From assembly GCF_016862935.1 (NCBI RefSeq), contig NZ_BONX01000002.1, positions 248,001-312,000 on the forward strand: a DNA stretch of 64,000 bases, given 5' to 3'. Position 1 is the stretch's first letter, and each line of letters opens with the position of its first letter. Below the pieces are notes generated by a model, which had not been told where the DNA came from, did not search any database, and was given only the letters and a program-made list of their open reading frames with translations. This DNA is from Plantactinospora mayteni (GTDB taxonomy: Bacteria > Actinomycetota > Actinomycetes > Mycobacteriales > Micromonosporaceae). The position numbers and the translations under genes were made by a program. Below are positions 25,832 to 34,670 of the stretch, piece by piece.

Positions 25832-26947
25832 ATGGAGTTCGATGAACGGGTCGCTGCGCTCGCCACGAAGGTCCGGAATCAGCGGGACGCGATTCAGACG
25901 GAAGAAGCTGCCAAGAATGCTTTCGTCATGCCGTTCATCTCAATGATCCTCGGCTACGACGTCTTTGATCCACTGGAGGTAATACCGGAGTTCAACGCCG
26001 ACGTTGGGGTCAAGAAAGGCGAAAAGGTCGACTACGCGATCGTACGTGCCGGCGAGGTGCAGATCCTCATCGAATGCAAGCAGCCGCGCGACCCCCTGAA
26101 GATTGAACACGCGTCTCAGCTTTATCGATACTTCTCGGTTACGAATGCACGGATCGGCGTCCTCACCAATGGGCAGGTCTACCATTTCTACACCGATCTC
26201 GACGCTCCCAACAAGATGGATGCCAAGCCCTTCCTCGTGCTGGACTTGGAAGATATCGACGACGCCCTCTTGCCAGAACTACGTAAGCTCACAAAGGAAG
26301 TGTTCGATCTCGAGTCCATCATCAGCGCGGCCGAAGAGCTGAAGTATCTCGGTCAGATCAAGCGTTCGATGGCGACGCAGTTCAAGGAACCCGAGGATGA
26401 GTGGGTCAGGTTCTTCGCGACGAGAGTGTACGATGGTTCGCTCACTCAAAAGAGGCGCGAACAGTTCAGGTCGCTCGTTGCCAAGGCTGCCTCACAGTTC
26501 GTCAGAGATCAAGTGAACGAACGCCTGAAGGGCGCACTCTACGCAAGCCTTCCAAAGCAGGCTACCGAGGCGCCCTCCGAAGTGCTCGAGAGCGAAGAGG
26601 TCGCACTGGGCGATGTCGCCCGTGACACGGAGGTGGAGACCACGCTTGAAGAACTTACCGGCTACCAGATCATCAAGGCGATCGCGTGTAGCGAAGTCAA
26701 GCCTCAACGCATTGTTGGCCGTGATGCCAAGTCATACTTCGCGGTCATTCTCGACGACAATAACCGCAAACCCATTGCGCGACTGCATTTCAACGGAAAG
26801 GCCAGAAAGTACGTTGGAACCTTCGACGCCGACAAGACGGAGACTCGCCATCTGATCGGCTCTATTGACGATATCTATCTTCACGCCGACGCGATACGGA
26901 ATGCGGTAAAGGCTTTCATGGGCGAGGGGGGCCGCAAGACCCTTTGA
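25832..26947 (+). CDS. Stand-alone type I restriction-like nuclease (HSDR_N-type PD-(D/E)XK domain)
   Basis: A 371-residue protein. Residues about 20-150 match the N-terminal nuclease domain of type I restriction HsdR proteins. Putative PD-(D/E)XK residues are Glu53 in IPEF, Asp67 in KVDYAI and Glu81-x-Lys83 in ILIECK, followed by the conserved SQLYRYFSVTNARIGVLTNG. There is no helicase motor and no methylase or specificity subunit alongside. The C-terminal 80 residues (TLEELTGYQIIKAIACSE...) form a second small domain repeatedly seen with such solo proteins. AAGGAG precedes the ATG by eight bases. It is AT-richer than its surroundings. Likely a defence or mobile-element nuclease; function is inferred. 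Confidence 0.8.
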   Translation: MEFDERVAALATKVRNQRDAIQTEEAAKNAFVMPFISMILGYDVFDPLEVIPEFNADVGVKKGEKVDYAIVRAGEVQILIECKQPRDPLKIEHASQLYRYFSVTNARIGVLTNGQVYHFYTDLDAPNKMDAKPFLVLDLEDIDDALLPELRKLTKEVFDLESIISAAEELKYLGQIKRSMATQFKEPEDEWVRFFATRVYDGSLTQKRREQFRSLVAKAASQFVRDQVNERLKGALYASLPKQATEAPSEVLESEEVALGDVARDTEVETTLEELTGYQIIKAIACSEVKPQRIVGRDAKSYFAVILDDNNRKPIARLHFNGKARKYVGTFDADKTETRHLIGSIDDIYLHADAIRNAVKAFMGEGGRKTL

Positions 26948-27003: not shown

Positions 27004-27150
27004 GTGGTTGAGCATACAGGTGAGTACAAGATCCTGCTGGTCGAGCCGGCCCGGACGATCAACACCAGTACGGTGGGCGGGCCGATGACCTGGGCGGCCG
27101 GGACCTTCGACGGAGCCGCCGACCGGGTCACCCCCGAGCCAGCAGGCTGA
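27004..27150 (+). pseudogene. Orphan 3' coding fragment at island edge
   Basis: Bases 27004-27150 encode, in one frame ending at TGA, a 48-residue segment (VVEHTGEYKILLVEPA...TWAAGTFDG) with host-like GC and codon use. It has no ribosome-binding site and begins where AT-rich island DNA ends. It looks like the C-terminus of a longer gene cut off by whatever inserted upstream. It overlaps the convergent LuxR gene by 23 bp. Family not recognised. Confidence 0.35.
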
Positions 27151-30037
27151 CCAGGGCGGTACGGGAGGTCACCCCGAGCTTCCGGTAGATCCGCATCAGG
27201 TGCGCGTCGACCGTACGCGGGCTGATCTGGAGTTGTCGGGCGATCACCCGGGACGTGGCACCGGTGACGGTCAGCTCGGCGACCTCCCGTTCCCGCGCGG
27301 TCAGTAGCGCCAACGGATGCGCCGGGTCCGGTACCGCCCCGGGCTGGTCCGTCGGCACCGCACGCCGGGACAGCCGGGCGGCCAGCCGGCGCTGCGCCCG
27401 GTCCGCCTGCCCGGCCAGCCAGCGCGCGCCGCTGGCGGCGAAGAGCCGCTTGGCCCGACCGAGCTGCTCGCGGGCCGAGCGCGGATCCCCGGTCGCCGCC
27501 CGCGCCTCGGCGAGCACCATCCGGGCCTGCCCCTCGGCCACCGGCATGCCGGCCGCGCCGAGCTGGCCGATCGCCGGCGCCAGCTCCGCGACGGCGTCGC
27601 CCGGGTCGCCGTGCGCCAGGGCCAGGGTCGCGCCGGCCAGCCCGACCAGCCCGAGCCGCCCGGGCAGGTCACCGGCGGCATCCGCGGCCCGATCCAGCCA
27701 GCGCCGGGCCTGCGGCGATACTCCAACCGACCCGTCCCCCGCCGAGCCGGCCCGACCGGCTCCGGCGGCGGAGAGCGCCCGTACGACGAGGACGCCCGCC
27801 TCGGCCGGTCCGAGGCAGCGGTACGTCTCCACGTCGGCCAGCAACTCCTGGCAGCCGGCGTCGTCGCCGATCGCGGCGCTCGCCTCGGCCAGGTGCAGCC
27901 TCACCACCGCTCGGTACAGTGTGGACCGTGGGGCGGCGCTGCCGCGCAGCCGATCCAGCGCTGGGCGTACGGCGTCCGGCCCGGCGAGCCAGAGCAGCGG
28001 CCGGAGTCGTACCGCCGCCGCCAGGGTCGCCGCCTCGGCACCGCCCTGCCACCGGGCGATCTCCTCCGCCTCCTCGGCGTCCCGCAGCGCGTCGTCGACC
28101 CGGCCCACCGTGCCGTAGAGCACCGACCGGGCCGCGTAGAGCAGCGGATGCACGTGGATCCGCCCGTACCGCAGCCCCACCTCGATGCCCCGCTCCGCGT
28201 GTGCCAGTCCGTCGTCGACCCGGTCCAGCATCGCCTCGATCCAGGCGAGCAGGGCGATCGCGCCCAGTTCGTCGCGGAGTGCCACGTCACCGAGGGCGTC
28301 GATCATCCGGGCGGCGTACGAGACCCGCAGCCGGGCGGTGGGCAGCGGTTCCCGGGCGACCGCGCAGGCGGCCAGTACGGTGCTCGCGGCGGCCTCGATC
28401 CCCCAATGCCCGCCCTGCCGCGCCCGGTCCATCGTCTTGCCCGCGTGCCTGGCCCCGGCCCGCCAGCGCCCGGCCAGCATCTCTGTCACGGCGAGTTCCA
28501 GCCGCAGCATCGCCTGCGGCGTGCCGGTGGCGCCGAGCCGTTCCAGTTCGGTGCTGAGCAGCGCGCTGGCCACGTCGAGCCGACCGGCCAGCCGTTCCAG
28601 CACCGCGAGTTGCTCGACCGCCGCGTGCCGGTGCAGGCCGGCGACCGCGACGAGATCGTGCAGCACGGTCCGCGCCTCGTCGAACTGGCCGGTCACCCCG
28701 AGCGCCTTGGCGAAGAGCAGCCGCAGCTCGGCCCGACGATCCGCCCGACCGGGACCGTCGGGCAGCGCCGACAGCGCGACCCGCAGCCAGGCGGCGCTGG
28801 TGCTCGGTGCCGTACCCATGGTGGTGATCGCGGCCGTGGCGAGTACCCCGGCGGCGGCCTCGTCGCCCGGCTGGATCGCCTTGGCCAGGTGGTGGGCCCG
28901 GAGCGTCAGCGGGGCGCCGCCGCGTTCCAGGTGGGCCGCGGCCCGGCGGTGCGCGGCCAGCCGCCAGGCCGGACCGGCCAGCCAGTACGCCACCGCCCGC
29001 ACCAGCGAGTGCCGGAAGTCCAGCTCCGCGCCGACCTGCCGGAGCAGGTTCCGGGTGACCAGCGCGTCGAGCGCGGTGGTGGTGCGGTGCGGGTCGATCC
29101 CGGCCGCGGCGGCGACGGTGCCGATGTCGAGGCCGGGTCCGACCACAGCGGTGGCCTGGAGCACCAGCCGTTCGGTCGGACCCAGCCCACGGATCTCGAT
29201 CGCCATCGCGCCGTGCAGCGCCGTGGTCACCGGCTCGTCCGGAAAGTCGCCGCGACGCAGCGCGCCGAGGACCTGCGTCGAGGTGCCGGCGAGCAGTTCC
29301 AGATAGAGCGGGTTGCCGCCGCTGACCTGGTGCAGCAGCCGACGCCGGGACGCCGGCTCGGCCGACAGCAGTTGGTCGACGTCGGCGCCGGTCAGCGGGT
29401 CGAGCCGGAGCCAGTTCGGCAGCGGCGCGAGGTGGGCGAGTTCCTCGGCCAGCCTCGGCGGGCACTGCTCGGACCGGAACGCCAGCACCACCGTGATCCG
29501 GGCGTCCGGCGGATGCCGCAGCAGATAGCCGAGGAACTCGACGGAGGCGTCGTCGGCCCACTGCACGTCGTCGAAGACCAGCAGCGCACCGGCGGGACGG
29601 GCGGCGGCGGTGACCAGGCTACGCAACCGCCGGTGCCGCTGGTGCCGCTCGACGGCGGCGGTGGCCGGCCCCGGCCCGTCGGGGTCACGCACCGCGAGGG
29701 TGTCGAGCAGCGCGTGCAGGTCCGCCCGATGATCGGGTACGCCGGCCAGCGCGTCCAGCAGCACGCCGTACGGGAGGGAGCGCTCGAACTCGGTCGCCCG
29801 ACCGAGCAGCACGGTACGACCACGGTCGCCGGCCACCTGCGCCACCTCGGCGACGAGTCGGCTCTTGCCGATGCCCGGTTCGCCGTGCAGCACCAGGAAC
29901 CGGGGCCGTGACCTGTCCTCGTCGAGCATCGCGACCATCCGGGCCAGCTCGACAGCGCGGCCGACCAGGGCGGCGACGGTCCGCGCTGCCGCCGGTCGCG
30001 GTACGGCCGTCGGCTCCGATGGCGATGTGACCGGCAC
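27128..30037 (-). CDS. LAL-type LuxR family transcriptional regulator
   Basis: A 969-residue large ATP-binding LuxR regulator. An AAA-type ATPase domain lies near the N-terminus (about 25-300), with Walker A GEPGIGKSR and Walker B-like ALLVFDDVQWADD. A long helical TPR-like middle follows, and a LuxR helix-turn-helix ends the protein (LTAREREVAELTVTGATSRVIARQLQISPRTVDAHL). The frame is open from 30196, but the GTG at 30037 sits six bases after GGAGG and gives the usual short leader. It is monocistronic. LAL regulators often control carbohydrate or secondary-metabolite genes; its target is unknown. Confidence 0.9.
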   Translation of the reverse strand: MPVTSPSEPTAVPRPAAARTVAALVGRAVELARMVAMLDEDRSRPRFLVLHGEPGIGKSRLVAEVAQVAGDRGRTVLLGRATEFERSLPYGVLLDALAGVPDHRADLHALLDTLAVRDPDGPGPATAAVERHQRHRRLRSLVTAAARPAGALLVFDDVQWADDASVEFLGYLLRHPPDARITVVLAFRSEQCPPRLAEELAHLAPLPNWLRLDPLTGADVDQLLSAEPASRRRLLHQVSGGNPLYLELLAGTSTQVLGALRRGDFPDEPVTTALHGAMAIEIRGLGPTERLVLQATAVVGPGLDIGTVAAAAGIDPHRTTTALDALVTRNLLRQVGAELDFRHSLVRAVAYWLAGPAWRLAAHRRAAAHLERGGAPLTLRAHHLAKAIQPGDEAAAGVLATAAITTMGTAPSTSAAWLRVALSALPDGPGRADRRAELRLLFAKALGVTGQFDEARTVLHDLVAVAGLHRHAAVEQLAVLERLAGRLDVASALLSTELERLGATGTPQAMLRLELAVTEMLAGRWRAGARHAGKTMDRARQGGHWGIEAAASTVLAACAVAREPLPTARLRVSYAARMIDALGDVALRDELGAIALLAWIEAMLDRVDDGLAHAERGIEVGLRYGRIHVHPLLYAARSVLYGTVGRVDDALRDAEEAEEIARWQGGAEAATLAAAVRLRPLLWLAGPDAVRPALDRLRGSAAPRSTLYRAVVRLHLAEASAAIGDDAGCQELLADVETYRCLGPAEAGVLVVRALSAAGAGRAGSAGDGSVGVSPQARRWLDRAADAAGDLPGRLGLVGLAGATLALAHGDPGDAVAELAPAIGQLGAAGMPVAEGQARMVLAEARAATGDPRSAREQLGRAKRLFAASGARWLAGQADRAQRRLAARLSRRAVPTDQPGAVPDPAHPLALLTAREREVAELTVTGATSRVIARQLQISPRTVDAHLMRIYRKLGVTSRTALVSLLARG

Positions 30038-30485
30038 CCGGTACCTCCAGGACATGGGTTGATCCTGTCCCGAGGTAACCGCGTCGACCGTTGTCCATGC
30101 CAGAGGAGATCGGGCCGAACTATAAGCAGTCATCAGTCCATTGACACCGCAGCGCCGAGAACCTATGGCCGACCGCTTCGGGACGTCCCCGGACACTGGG
30201 GACGTTTCCGCAGGTCAGAGCGGCCGGACGGGTTGCTCGTCGGGATCGGCTGCCGTGGTCACGGTGCCGGTGGACGGCGGCTGCGGAGGCGGGCGGAATC
30301 GTGGATCGGGCCCGCTCCCGCCCCCGGTGTCGCGCCCGCTCTTCCCGGAGTACGGGACACGTCGGTCCCGCAGGTAGGACCCGTCCGTCGGCGCGGACAT
30401 GGCGTAGCGGCGTACCGGACAAGGGTTTCCGGAGGGTTCCCGCCGGGTTCCGTTCCGGACCGGCGGACCCCGCCGCGACCGGCCG
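30038..30485. other. 448-bp gap with a hairpin, no gene
   Basis: Holds the upstream region of the LAL regulator and the downstream region of the WXG100-like gene. One structure is visible: ACGTCCCC (30183-30190) pairs with GGGGACGT (30198-30205) around a seven-base loop, a possible terminator or operator. Open frames here have no support. Confidence 0.4.
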
Positions 30486-31811
30486 TCAGTGCCGGAGCAT
30501 CGCGACCGCCTGCCGGGCGATCCGCAGACCGAGCATCCCCGGCATCGCCCTGGTCGCCATCTCCCGCACGCCCTTGGCCGGCATGCCCCGCATACCCATG
30601 TCGCCCATCCCGCGCATGCGCCTGGCCGCCATCCCGCCCATGCCCTTGCCGGCGGCCATGCCGTGCATGCCCTTCCCGGCCATCCCGCGCAGGTGCCTGC
30701 CGGCCATCCCGCGCATGCTCCTGGTCCGGTTCGTGATCCCGCTCATCCGGGTCAGCACGCCCCGGGCCACCTGGCCGGGCTTCTGCTGCTCGCCGGCGAG
30801 TGCGGTGACCACGATCAGCCCGCCGGTCAGGGCCGGGATCACCCACTGCAACACCCGCAACTGCCGCTGCCGGGCCGCGACGCCCGCGGGCGTGCCGTTC
30901 TCCGGTGCGGTCGTCGCCACCACCGGCACCTCGCTGCTCTTCTGCAACTGCATGCCGAGCAGCCGGCTGTAGCCGGTCACCGCGAGCGCGGCCACCGTCA
31001 GCCCGGTCTTGACGGCGCTCATCCGGCCCACCCCGGACTGGACGAGCATCCGCGGACTCTCGGTGATCAGCTCACCGGCGGCGCCGGCCACGTGGGTGCC
31101 GATCGCCGCCGCGTTCACCGGGGTCCACCTCGCCCAACCGGCCGAGGCCACCCCGAGCCGCTGCCTCGAATCGCTCACCTTCGCCGCCGCGCCGTTGACC
31201 CCGATCGCCCCCATCAGGGAGCCGCCGAACCAGGCAGCCAGGCCGAGATCGTGCATCGAGCGCAGTACGGTATGCCGCTCCGACATCTGCCAACCTCCGT
31301 GGTAGGAGATCCGCCGGGTACCCGCCCTGGAGGGTTCCAATCCCGTTGTGGAGGCCGCCTGGGCGTTCAACTCCGAGTCGACCCTGGCCCGGATCTGCTT
31401 GGCCAGCGCTACCGCGTCGTTCACCTGGCTGGTTTCCTGCTCGTTGGCGGGATGGAAGGTCAACTGGCCACCGGGGTGGTCGGAACGGATCTTGGACAGC
31501 TTCTCCCGCTCGCGGGTCAGCATCTCCTGGTTGTGGCGGAGCGTCTGGGCGCACTCGCCGAGCGCCCTGGCGACCTTGCCGGCCAGTTCGGCGCAGTCCT
31601 CAAGCTCGGCGACGAGCTTCCGCCGGTGCTGGTCGTATCGGTCGGCTGTTTCGCCCGTCCACGCCTCGGAGCCGATCACCTGGCTGGCCACGCTGTCGAC
31701 GGTGTCGGCAGCCCAGGACAGTTGTGTGGTTTGCAGCTTCCAGGTGGTTTCGAGAGCATCCAGGGCAGCCGGATCGGCTCGCAGGTCCGACAGGTCGGCC
31801 ACGTTTCCCAT
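30486..31811 (-). CDS. WXG100-like domain fused to a membrane protein with a Met/Gly-rich tail
   Basis: A 441-residue ORF in three parts. Residues 1-150 are an alpha-helical WXG100/type VII secretion substrate-like domain (AWTGETADRYDQHRRKLVAEL; W51-T-G53). Residues 176-385 (from MSERHTVLRSMHDLGLAAWFGGSLMG) form a membrane protein of a type that usually stands alone, with hydrophobic segments near AWFGGSLMGAIGV, LTVAALAVTGYS and VIPALTGGLIVVTALAG. The last 60 residues are a Met-Gly-Arg/Lys repeat (RGMAGKGMHGMAAGKGM). A perfect GGAGG eight bases before the internal ATG at 31286 implies that a separate 266-residue membrane protein can also be made. No function is assigned. Confidence 0.7.
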   Translation of the reverse strand: MGNVADLSDLRADPAALDALETTWKLQTTQLSWAADTVDSVASQVIGSEAWTGETADRYDQHRRKLVAELEDCAELAGKVARALGECAQTLRHNQEMLTREREKLSKIRSDHPGGQLTFHPANEQETSQVNDAVALAKQIRARVDSELNAQAASTTGLEPSRAGTRRISYHGGWQMSERHTVLRSMHDLGLAAWFGGSLMGAIGVNGAAAKVSDSRQRLGVASAGWARWTPVNAAAIGTHVAGAAGELITESPRMLVQSGVGRMSAVKTGLTVAALAVTGYSRLLGMQLQKSSEVPVVATTAPENGTPAGVAARQRQLRVLQWVIPALTGGLIVVTALAGEQQKPGQVARGVLTRMSGITNRTRSMRGMAGRHLRGMAGKGMHGMAAGKGMGGMAARRMRGMGDMGMRGMPAKGVREMATRAMPGMLGLRIARQAVAMLRH

Positions 31812-31828
31812 GCCGGAAAATCCTAGCG

Positions 31829-31838
31829 TTGACGTCAA
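31829..31838. promoter_or_regulatory. Palindrome in the divergent WXG/KASIII gap
   Basis: TTGACGTCAA, a perfect 10-bp palindrome 18 bp upstream of the WXG-fusion start and 155 bp upstream of the KASIII-fusion start. Possibly a regulator site shared by the divergent genes; unproven. Confidence 0.25.
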
Positions 31839-31992
31839 TGGCCGCGAATGGGCTCATCGGGAACATGCGCCCGCATGGCCAGGTGCGGCCTTCGTAGTGG
31901 TCCAGGCCGAGGCCGGATGAGTATCGCCTACCAGGGCGGCTGAGTTCGCGCAGGGATTGCGCCGGGTCGTCCCGGGTGGCCTGCTAGTTGGT

Positions 31993-33813
31993 ATGGCTGA
32001 CGCGTACCTCACGGCTGCTGGCGCGTACCTGCCCGGCCAGCCCGTGGACAACGACGAGATGGCGGCACGGCTGGGCAGCGACGGCACCGGAGCGGCGTGG
32101 CGGCGCCGGGTGCTGGCGGCCAACGGAATTCGTACCCGGCACTACGCGCTCGACGAGCGCGGCGAGCCGACGATGCTCAACGAGGAACTCGCCGCAGAGG
32201 CGGTACGGCGGGCCCTCAAGCACCGCGACCTGCCGCTGGAGTCACTACGGATGCTCGCCGCCGGGACCACCCAGGGCGATCTGCTGGTACCCGGCTTCGC
32301 CTCGATGGTGCACGGCAGGCTCGGCGGCACCGAGTTGGAACTCCTGGCCGCCGGAGGAGTCTGCGCGTCGAGCATGGCGGCCCTGACGGCGGCCGTCCGG
32401 GCGGTGCGCCTCGGCGAGCACGACAACGCCGTGGTGGTCGGCTCGGAACTGGTCAGCCGGTCGCTACGGCAGCGCCGGTACGGCGGCGGCCGGCCGGACT
32501 TCGACGCGGAGTTCCTGCGCTGGACGCTCTCCGACGGTGCCGGTGCGGTCGTGGTGGAACCGGCACCCCGCTCGGACGGGTTGAGTTTGCGGGTCGACTG
32601 GACGCACCTGGTCTCGCACGCGCACCAGTACCCGGTCTGCATGTCGGCGGGCGGCGCCGGCGGTCGGAGCTGGCTGGAACTGCCCGACGCCGCCGAGGCC
32701 GACCGGGAGGGCATGCTGCGACTGCGCCAGGACGTACGCGCGCTGCCCCGGCTGTTCCAGTTGGGGCTGCGCGAGTTCGTGCAGTTGGTACGCCAGGGCC
32801 GGTTCCGGCCGGGCGACGTCGACCACGTGCTGTGCCACTACAGCGCGGAGCACTTCCGCGGCGAGATCTTCGACCTGCTGCGGGGTGCCGACCTGTTGAT
32901 CCCGGAGGAGCGCTGGTTCACGAACCTGCACACCAGGGGCAACACCGGAGCGGCGAGCATCTTCGTGATGCTGGAGGAAGCCTGGCACGGCGGCCGGTTC
33001 CGGCCCGGTGACCGGATCCTGCTCATCGTGCCGGAGTCCGGCCGGTTCTCGTTCGCCTTCGCCCATCTGACCTGTGTCGGGGCCGCCCCGACCGGGCGGA
33101 CCGCCCCGATCGTCACCCGGTCGCCACTCGGCGAGCCGGACACCGCGGACACCGACACGGTGCGCTGGACCGTCATGGAACTGGCCCGGGTCTGGTCCGA
33201 TTTCGAACGCCGGGTCCGGCAGACCCCGCTGGTCAGCCGGATCGACGCCGGCACCGCGACCGTCGACGACTACCGTGCGCTGCTGCTGCACCTGCGGCAG
33301 CAGGTGGTGGAGGGCGGCCGGTGGATCAGCCGGGCCGCGTCGAACTTCTCGGCGGAGCTGTTCGACCTGCGCAGCGCGGCGATCCGGCACGCCGCCGAGG
33401 AGCATCGCGATTTTCGCCTGCTGGAGCAGGACTTCTGTGCACTCGGCGGCGACCTGGACGAGATCCGCCACGGTCGCAAGAACCTGGGTTCCGAGGCGCT
33501 GTCGGCGTACATGTTCCACCAGGCCAGTCAGCCCGACCCGGTGGACCTGCTCGGCGCGATGTTCATCATCGAGGGTCTCGGCGCCGCACTCGCCGCCGAC
33601 TGGGCGGCCCGGCTGCGCGAGCAGTTGGATCTGGGGGAGGACCAGACACGGTTCCTGCGGTACCACGGTTCGGCCGACGACGAGCACTTCGCCGAGCTGG
33701 CCCGGATGCTGCGCTCCGACATCGTCGACCGCGCCCGCGCGGAGCGCATCGTGCGGACAGCCGAGGTCGTGGCGCGGCTCTACGCCTGGCAGTTGGCGGA
33801 GGTGACCGGATGA
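31993..33813 (+). CDS. Ketoacyl synthase III-like domain fused to a haem-oxygenase-like diiron oxidase domain
   Basis: A 606-residue two-domain protein. Residues 1-370 have the KASIII/FabH thiolase fold, with the full Cys-His-Asn triad: Cys124 in GGVCASSMAAL, His282 in LCHYSAEH and Asn317 in GNTGAAS. It therefore should form or condense acyl thioesters. Residues 390-606 resemble the haem-oxygenase-like iron redox enzymes (UndA/BesC/CADD group): HAAEEHRD (466-473), IIEG with Glu527, and YHGSADDEHF (557-566) supply candidate metal ligands. The frame opens at 31957, but family homology starts at ATG 31993; no strong Shine-Dalgarno is visible. Its stop overlaps the next gene by four bases. Product and pathway unknown; see findings. 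Confidence 0.82.
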   Translation: MADAYLTAAGAYLPGQPVDNDEMAARLGSDGTGAAWRRRVLAANGIRTRHYALDERGEPTMLNEELAAEAVRRALKHRDLPLESLRMLAAGTTQGDLLVPGFASMVHGRLGGTELELLAAGGVCASSMAALTAAVRAVRLGEHDNAVVVGSELVSRSLRQRRYGGGRPDFDAEFLRWTLSDGAGAVVVEPAPRSDGLSLRVDWTHLVSHAHQYPVCMSAGGAGGRSWLELPDAAEADREGMLRLRQDVRALPRLFQLGLREFVQLVRQGRFRPGDVDHVLCHYSAEHFRGEIFDLLRGADLLIPEERWFTNLHTRGNTGAASIFVMLEEAWHGGRFRPGDRILLIVPESGRFSFAFAHLTCVGAAPTGRTAPIVTRSPLGEPDTADTDTVRWTVMELARVWSDFERRVRQTPLVSRIDAGTATVDDYRALLLHLRQQVVEGGRWISRAASNFSAELFDLRSAAIRHAAEEHRDFRLLEQDFCALGGDLDEIRHGRKNLGSEALSAYMFHQASQPDPVDLLGAMFIIEGLGAALAADWAARLREQLDLGEDQTRFLRYHGSADDEHFAELARMLRSDIVDRARAERIVRTAEVVARLYAWQLAEVTG

Positions 33814-34670
33814 CCGGGCCGAGCATCTGGACGGTGGTGCTGGCTGATCCGACCGTACCGTTCGACCGGGCCACCCTGGCGCTGGTCGTGGCGGACCAGC
33901 GCCGGCCCTCGCGACGGTGGCTCTATCCGGTGGTACGCCCGCTGTCCCGGCTGGCCGTCACGCTGATCCGGATCGGGAAGCGACTCCTTCCCGTTCCGGT
34001 GTCCGGGCACTCCGCGATGGACACCCTGTGCGTCTGGTTCCTTCGCCGGTTCGTCTCGCCGACCGCGGGGGCGCTGCTGATCCGGCACTTCGTCGTGGAG
34101 ACCAACCTGCTCAACTTCGTCGTACGCAACGCCGCCCCGGCCGGCGTCGACGAGGTCACCCTGCGCCCGACAACCCTCGCCGGACTCGGCGACTCCGCCG
34201 TCATCGAACACGACCTGAACGTCTACGCCGTGCTCACCGGGCTCGGCCTCGGCGGCCGGTCGGCCCGACCGGAGGTGCTCGACTTCTCCATGCTCACCGT
34301 GCCGGCGGTCGACGCGTCGCCCGGGGTGCCCCGGCTGGCGCGGCTCGACATCCAGACGGCACTGTGCTTGATGAACATCCCGTTCGCGCTCTGCCTGACC
34401 GACGACGAGTACCGGCGCGCGGTGCACTCGCTACGGCTGGACGACTCGCTGCTCGCCGTCCTCGCCGAGCTGACCGGAGACGCGACGTTCCTGCGCTGGT
34501 GCTCCGGCACCCCGGCAGTACGCGTGGACAGCAGCGTCGACGTACCGCAGGCGGTTTACGAGCACGCGGTCGTCTGCGAGTACGCCCACGAGCGACTCAG
34601 GCAACTCGCCGCACGGCAGGAGCCGGCACCCCACCCCGACCCGGCGCCCCAGGTGTTCACCTCCGGGTGA
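33810..34670 (+). CDS. Unrecognised helical protein coupled to the KASIII-oxidase fusion
   Basis: A 286-residue protein whose ATG overlaps the upstream TGA (ATGA), so the two are made together. I cannot assign a family with confidence. It is predicted mostly helical, with a moderately hydrophobic N-terminal stretch (WLYPVVRPLSRLAVTLIRIGKRLLPVPVSGH) and His/Glu-bearing helices (LIRHFVVETNLLNFVV; SAVIEHDLNVYAVLTG) that could bind metal or pack against a membrane. There is no signal peptide. Composition matches the upstream gene. Its role must be tied to the fusion enzyme, for example as partner, substrate carrier or second oxidase; this is inference. Confidence 0.75.
   Translation: MTGPSIWTVVLADPTVPFDRATLALVVADQRRPSRRWLYPVVRPLSRLAVTLIRIGKRLLPVPVSGHSAMDTLCVWFLRRFVSPTAGALLIRHFVVETNLLNFVVRNAAPAGVDEVTLRPTTLAGLGDSAVIEHDLNVYAVLTGLGLGGRSARPEVLDFSMLTVPAVDASPGVPRLARLDIQTALCLMNIPFALCLTDDEYRRAVHSLRLDDSLLAVLAELTGDATFLRWCSGTPAVRVDSSVDVPQAVYEHAVVCEYAHERLRQLAARQEPAPHPDPAPQVFTSG

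Follow-up and report, generated by a model that had tools for sequence, protein, structure and literature searches.

We describe a two-gene cluster from the actinomycete Plantactinospora mayteni, within a stretch of 64,000 nucleotides (contig NZ_BONX01000002.1, positions 248,001 to 312,000; hereafter the window). Its first gene joins a ketosynthase (KS) resembling StlD and DarB to a C-terminal haem-oxygenase-like domain (HDO), and its second encodes a protein of the Pfam family DUF6999. The set of KS, HDO and DUF6999 is general rather than a local oddity, with KS and HDO found together in Actinomycetota, Bacteroidota, Cyanobacteriota, Acidobacteriota, Myxococcota and Pseudomonadota, nearly always accompanied by DUF6999. 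The best-supported account of these genes is a conserved lipid-ring pathway, in which ring formation by the KS would be followed by O2-dependent oxidation, and we give this account slightly less than an even chance of being right.

By alignment and by structural model, the KS is StlD/DarB-like, with StlD and DarB as its nearest relatives. It aligns end to end with StlD (PDB 5gk0; E 3e-70), its best solved relative, and C124, H282 and N317, which align with the corresponding StlD residues, do not vary in any of the 47 aligned fusions (the window fusion and 46 of 64 candidate references). An AlphaFold2 model of the fusion (mean predicted local distance difference test score, pLDDT, 89.6; predicted template modelling score, pTM, 0.64) was compared with the PDB by Foldseek, which placed StlD 5gk0 first (E 7.6e-34, TM score on the target 0.89, 38% identity), then PqsD (E 1.2e-19), FabH and OleA, with AbyA1 also among the matches. 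The best named models are those of the StlD/DarB family (NF005293, 341 bits, cut-off 450) and DarB (NF053539, 298.6 bits, cut-off 550). Known StlD/DarB members make 2,5-dialkylcyclohexane-1,3-diones, the DarB products being 4-carboxy-2,5-dialkylcyclohexane-1,3-diones and that of StlD the styryl analogue (PMC5515871). In a KS tree from which 25 near-duplicates were left out, StlD and six loci that carry the KS alone fall outside all other loci, with several deep branches weakly supported.

A sequence-only reading of this stretch had seen a single open reading frame (ORF) holding a complete ketosynthase and a C-terminal domain of HDO type, and both halves hold up. Beyond the invariant triad of the KS, residues 443-597 match PF14518 (Haem_oxygenas_2, 'iron-containing redox enzyme') at 41.9 bits against a cut-off of 28.9, the model forms a helical bundle over residues 388-602, and a sequence search with the HDO alone reached 3dde at E 3.1e-4. 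The two metal-ligand-like clusters picked out earlier, HxxEExxD and HxxxDxxH, are both present, as H466-A-A-E469-E470-H-R-D473 and H558-x3-D562-x2-H565. H466, E470, D473, H558, D562 and H565 are invariant in all 47 fusions, and the same six together with E527 are invariant in 37 of 37 HDO domains aligned with split genes included; E469, counted in the first cluster, is variable. These candidate ligands fall on three helices, with H466, E470 and D473 on one, E527 on the next, and H558, D562 and H565 on the third. Each trio is predicted to lie on a single helix face, because its members are spaced i, i+4, i+7.

The partner, previously taken to be of unrecognised family, in fact matches DUF6999 (PF22523; 272.6 bits, cut-off 27, E 3.8e-81), a family whose own function is not known. 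Its model (pLDDT 92.6, pTM 0.89) is almost entirely helical, and a search against the PDB gave no confident match by fold (best Foldseek E 0.24) and 0 matches by profile. We rejected the idea that DUF6999 is a degenerate HDO, since hhalign gave a probability of 0.15% when the family was compared with the HDO alignment. An HD-domain or COQ4-like identity, which an H...HD pattern might have suggested, is not supported (the Pfam matches listed up to E 1 for 50 members include no such family, and none appeared by title among the best 50 of 109 fold matches to the partner). Foldseek, the PDB profile search and the HDO profile comparison thus each failed to place it in a known metalloenzyme fold. 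R92, H93, H134, D135, D180, D211, H252 and E257 are invariant across 61 DUF6999 homologues (a further alignment held the window partner and 49 of 75 candidate references). A very remote DUF6999-like homologue at locus L124 retains all eight, but not F103, N107 and P120, which the 61 share without exception. This conservation suggests that the eight polar residues form a catalytic or metal site, and speaks for an enzyme, where the sequence-only reading had also considered a carrier or a membrane adaptor. An HxxxE-bearing helix had been noted in the partner: its histidine, H93, is invariant, whereas E97 occurs in 35 of 62 rows. For 30 of the 62 rows, helix 33-59 reaches a 19-residue mean hydropathy of at least 1.6, and one row was too short for scoring; contact with the membrane through this helix is possible. 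DUF6999 is not named in the open-access literature searched. It is present in Caulobacter vibrioides, included as a control genome, and in Cyclobacterium qasimii it is split over two frames (L075:11860-12755), by a frameshift or a sequencing error.

The proposed linkage of the two genes was borne out by a search for the pair, which recurs over six phyla. We obtained 74 loci by scanning genome contigs: KS and HDO occur together at 68, and six (L068-L073) have the KS alone; labels such as actinobacterial-type and alphaproteobacterial-type are inferred for some source genomes. KS and HDO are separate adjoining genes at 13 of 69 loci analysed, and at five alphaproteobacterial-type loci besides (L119-L123). 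DUF6999 is present at 64 of the 68 KS-HDO loci, in a few cases with one or two intervening genes. In three of the four genomes lacking it at the locus, DUF6999 lies on a different contig, in two cases next to an incomplete desaturase gene; in the fourth, a metagenome-assembled genome (MAG), DUF6999 was not found, and the contig ends 7 bases past a desaturase gene. Among 101 relatives, the 13 genomes with a DUF6999 match to the Pfam model are the same 13 that carry this HDO (E below 1e-90), and by coordinates the two adjoin in all 13; one further genome has a weak HDO match only (1e-5). Some of these genomes contributed rows to the HDO profile, while the DUF6999 search was independent of that profile, and the co-occurrence has a hypergeometric P of 1.2e-16 with kinship left out of account. 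In two Pseudomonadota sets, DUF6999 occurs in 5 of 299 and 6 of 240 genomes (seeds included, one genome common to both), and every one of these has KS and HDO adjoining. In Bacteroidota, 3 of 247 genomes carry it, two being seeds and the third the genome of L124 (G632). Tree distances over 69 loci, with duplicate loci and loci missing one part left out, correlate at r 0.90 for KS and DUF6999, 0.73 for KS and HDO (which are mostly fused) and 0.66 for HDO and DUF6999, against a permutation maximum of 0.11.

The two genes are also maintained as genes. Compared with the closest named relative, Plantactinospora endophytica, whose fusion is 96% identical, the ratio of non-synonymous to synonymous substitution (dN/dS) is 0.16 over 606 codons of the fusion and 0.31 over 265 codons of the partner. 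Purifying selection thus acts on both, and the two-gene arrangement is not due to chance. As had been read from the sequence, the partner begins within the stop codon of the fusion, through an ATGA overlap; the HDO gene ends in NTGA at 17 of 66 related loci on the + strand. Nothing on a KS-HDO-DUF6999 set was found among the literature matches listed.

The loci with KS alone offer a comparison with StlD/DarB-type clusters. Two of the six (L072 and L069) were scored against the StlD/DarB models, and they pass NF005293 (544 and 541 bits, cut-off 450) while remaining below NF053539 (465.5 and 466.1 bits, cut-off 550). A flavodoxin-like protein is encoded upstream of the KS at 5 of the 6, three of these having served as seeds of the search model; it was found at 0 of 80 other sources, the window included. 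The three examples that were translated have 303-310 residues and a flavodoxin-like N-terminus, and received no name from Pfam or NCBIfam. We infer from this N-terminus and from the position beside DarB-like genes that the neighbour is DarA, and in Chitinophaga darA and darB have consecutive locus numbers (PMC3992019). Most simply, HDO and DUF6999 would together have replaced the step that the flavoprotein carries out.

Genes around the set bear out the lipid or biosynthetic setting suggested earlier. Using models built from a few such genes (seeds count as matches), we found a fatty-acid hydroxylase, desaturase or histidine-rich membrane protein at 36 of 76 sources, all among the 43 that are non-actinobacterial; this count takes in two second contigs and, at L059, a desaturase at a distance of 5 kb. 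A fatty-acid hydroxylase lies upstream at 15 of 16 Bacteroidota loci (PF04116 confirmed for L061, L037 and L104). The genomes with a desaturase near the set comprise three Myxococcaceae, two of the three Acidobacteriota, a Saprospiraceae MAG and three Pseudomonadota, these last three carrying a hydroxylase as well; PF00487 was confirmed for L053, L054, L103 and L104, while the desaturase protein of L037 and the cut one of L048 had no Pfam match. Upstream of the KS in seven Halomonadaceae and three other genomes (Pseudoalteromonas and two MAGs) is a small histidine-rich membrane protein of 185 residues (L097:7609-8166; relatives in L051, L057, L058, L060 and L062-L066). All 10 aligned rows share histidines at six columns, and several acidic residues are invariant too. 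The protein has no Pfam match above cut-off and has the look of a divergent membrane oxygenase of the histidine-box kind. Neither a membrane oxidase nor the histidine-rich protein was found at L036, L040, L045, L046, L067, L105, L108 or L124.

In the lipid-ring pathway that we favor, the chemical steps are inferred from the observed parts, their conservation, their linkage and the differing neighbour of StlD/DarB-type genes. Like StlD and DarB, the KS would condense two acyl thioesters, one beta-ketoacyl and one 2-enoyl, giving a 2,5-dialkyl-cyclohexane-1,3-dione or its carboxylate. The HDO, with a metal centre and O2, would then oxidise this product, either by aromatisation to a resorcinol or by hydroxylation, and in this way stand in for the flavoprotein that accompanies StlD/DarB. 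DUF6999 is probably an enzyme too, with a His/Asp/Glu site of its own; it may act on the same KS product, and in many Gram-negatives a membrane hydroxylase, a desaturase or the histidine-rich membrane protein may tailor it further. A more specific version of this pathway is tentative, and we doubt it more than the general one: that a StlD/DarB-like KS, an HDO with rearranged ligands and a DUF6999 metalloenzyme of new fold (candidate ligands H93, H134, H252, D135, D180, D211 and E257) make an oxidised dialkyl ring lipid across at least six phyla. Such a lipid might serve as a membrane antioxidant of quinone or resorcinol type, or as a signal.

Several observations weigh against this reading. 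The KS falls under both NCBIfam curated cut-offs, and because it scores 341 bits against 450, its substrates may differ from those of StlD and DarB. The fold search gave no check on the HDO, the 50 listed Foldseek matches of the whole fusion all being ketosynthases. Characterised HDOs share the motif E-H-E-H-(D/E)-H, and about 85% of analysed groups have E-H-X-H-(D/E)-H (PMC11363339); the HDO here departs from this motif, with D473 in place of the first-helix histidine in 37 of 37 rows. At the remote locus L124 (3320-5132), a KS gene and a DUF6999-like gene occur with no HDO, the DUF6999-like gene scoring 32.2 bits in the genome search, above the Pfam cut-off with one stop read through, and 21.5 bits as an ORF, below it. 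L071, which has the KS alone, has no flavodoxin-like gene in the 1.1 kb available upstream. No membrane lipid oxidase or histidine-rich protein was found at the 33 actinobacterial-type loci (five of them MAGs), and none of these membrane proteins at the five alphaproteobacterial-type loci (L119-L123). Finally, shared descent contributes to all three tree correlations. Beside the L124 pair lies a flavin monooxygenase-like gene, possibly marking a variant with another oxidase.

The sequence-only reading had pictured the KS handing an intermediate directly to the HDO for oxidative decarboxylation or cleavage. What stands is the joining of a ketoacyl synthase III-type enzyme and an HDO in one chain; as to chemistry, oxidising a ring product is a better fit than decarboxylating a beta-keto acid in the manner of UndA, because the KS is nearest to StlD and DarB, which make cyclohexanediones. 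About a dozen HDOs have been functionally validated (PMC13108848). The HDOs include fatty-acid enzymes that cleave C-C bonds (PMC13108848), so that a KS-made beta-keto acyl chain could be cut or decarboxylated to an alkene or ketone, in keeping with the desaturases and hydroxylases near many loci. We nevertheless consider this improbable, given a KS whose nearest relatives are ring-forming, a flavodoxin-like neighbour in the darA position at five of the six relatives without an HDO, and an aspartate where the first-helix histidine of an HDO is expected. That same substitution (Asp473) lends something to another unlikely alternative, in which the HDO is not a canonical diiron enzyme, but a mononuclear, other-metal or metal-free scaffold, and DUF6999 carries out the oxidative step. 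Ligand changes alter nuclearity in FlcD (PMC11363339), and L124 keeps all eight polar residues of its DUF6999-like protein with no HDO beside it; set against this, three histidines and four carboxylates of the HDO are invariant in 37 of 37 rows. Least likely is a route with no ring, in which the KS would join an acyl chain to a non-lipid partner in the manner of PqsD or acyl-transferring ketoacyl synthases and the HDO would oxidise the adduct, for instance at nitrogen: PqsD, FabH and AbyA1 do come after StlD in the fold search and many HDOs use amino acids (PMC13108848), but StlD is much nearer than PqsD (E 7.6e-34 versus 1.2e-19), and by eye no amino-acid biosynthesis gene was recognised among the listed unannotated neighbour clusters in at least three genus groups.

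Positions of the ketosynthase, HDO and DUF6999 features in the window
Feature	Position	Strand	Basis
Fusion gene, StlD/DarB-like KS + HDO, 606 aa (stop 33811-33813)	31993-33813	+	Translation, profile and fold matches
KS domain, fusion residues 3-362	31999-33078	+	Alignment with StlD (PDB 5gk0)
KS triad codons C124, H282, N317	32362-32364, 32836-32838, 32941-32943	+	
HDO domain, residues ~384-606 (PF14518 match 443-597)	33142-33810	+	
HDO candidate ligand codon starts: H466, E470, D473, E527, H558, D562, H565	33388, 33400, 33409, 33571, 33664, 33676, 33685	+	
ATGA stop-start overlap, fusion/DUF6999 partner	33810-33813	+	
DUF6999 partner, 286 aa	33810-34670	+	Translation, Pfam match
Gap between divergent upstream ORF (30486-31838, -) and fusion ATG; presumed promoter	31839-31992		ORF coordinates, inference

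The divergent ORF upstream encodes 450 residues with no Pfam match and an apparently Met/Gly/Arg-rich C-terminal part. Further out are a large AAA-LuxR regulator (27128-30196, - strand) and a protein that has an HSDR_N domain of type I restriction systems (25832-26947, + strand), while a TIR-domain protein (PF13676; 34776-35864, - strand) lies directly downstream, convergent with the two genes. A comparison with PHROG gave no match that would point to phage origin, and the earlier remark that no acyl carrier protein, ligase or polyketide synthase is nearby was viewed against the ORF listing of 26-41 kb only. At other loci, the KS-HDO gene has upstream of it genes for a histidine kinase of DUF5931 type and a response regulator of LuxR type (L003:8141-9926, the one locus tested with Pfam), in like places in Catellatospora and Glycomyces; related kinase and regulator genes lie within 10 kb in L034, and the regulator only in L015. 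The pair is a possible regulator of the KS-HDO genes, and is not seen directly upstream in the window.

Through this set, DUF6999, a Pfam family without a function, becomes the near-constant partner of a defined enzyme type. In the pathway we favor, the step done by a flavoprotein in dialkylresorcinol-type pathways would have an O2-dependent substitute. The HDOs also gain a group with an unusual ligand set. Because the core is two or three genes, its product should be directly searchable by expression or deletion.

With StlD, of the Photorhabdus stilbene pathway, and DarB, of the dialkylresorcinol pathway, the KS described here shares full-length alignment, fold and Cys-His-Asn triad. Unlike them, it scores below the family cut-offs, and is fused to or adjoins an HDO and DUF6999, with no flavodoxin-like gene in the darA position. 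The HDO shares with UndA, AetD, SznF, CADD and FlcD the PF14518 match and a helical bundle, and differs from all of these in lying C-terminal to a KS, an arrangement not described in the titles and abstract openings among the literature matches listed. DtpC was set aside as an instance of the same system, being a separate HDO in a different setting (PMC13232832). The likeness to AetD, whose ligands are D76, H79, E140, H172, E176 and H179 with H72 nearby (PMC10654658), extends to individual residues. Both have a glutamate on the second helix (E140 in AetD) and an H-x3-(D/E)-x2-H pattern on the third (H172-x3-E176-x2-H179), whereas on the first helix AetD has D76-x2-H79 and the HDO here has H466-x3-E470-x2-D473. 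Sequence and helix order together suggest a register in which aspartate stands for the histidine of AetD and H466 takes the place of H72.

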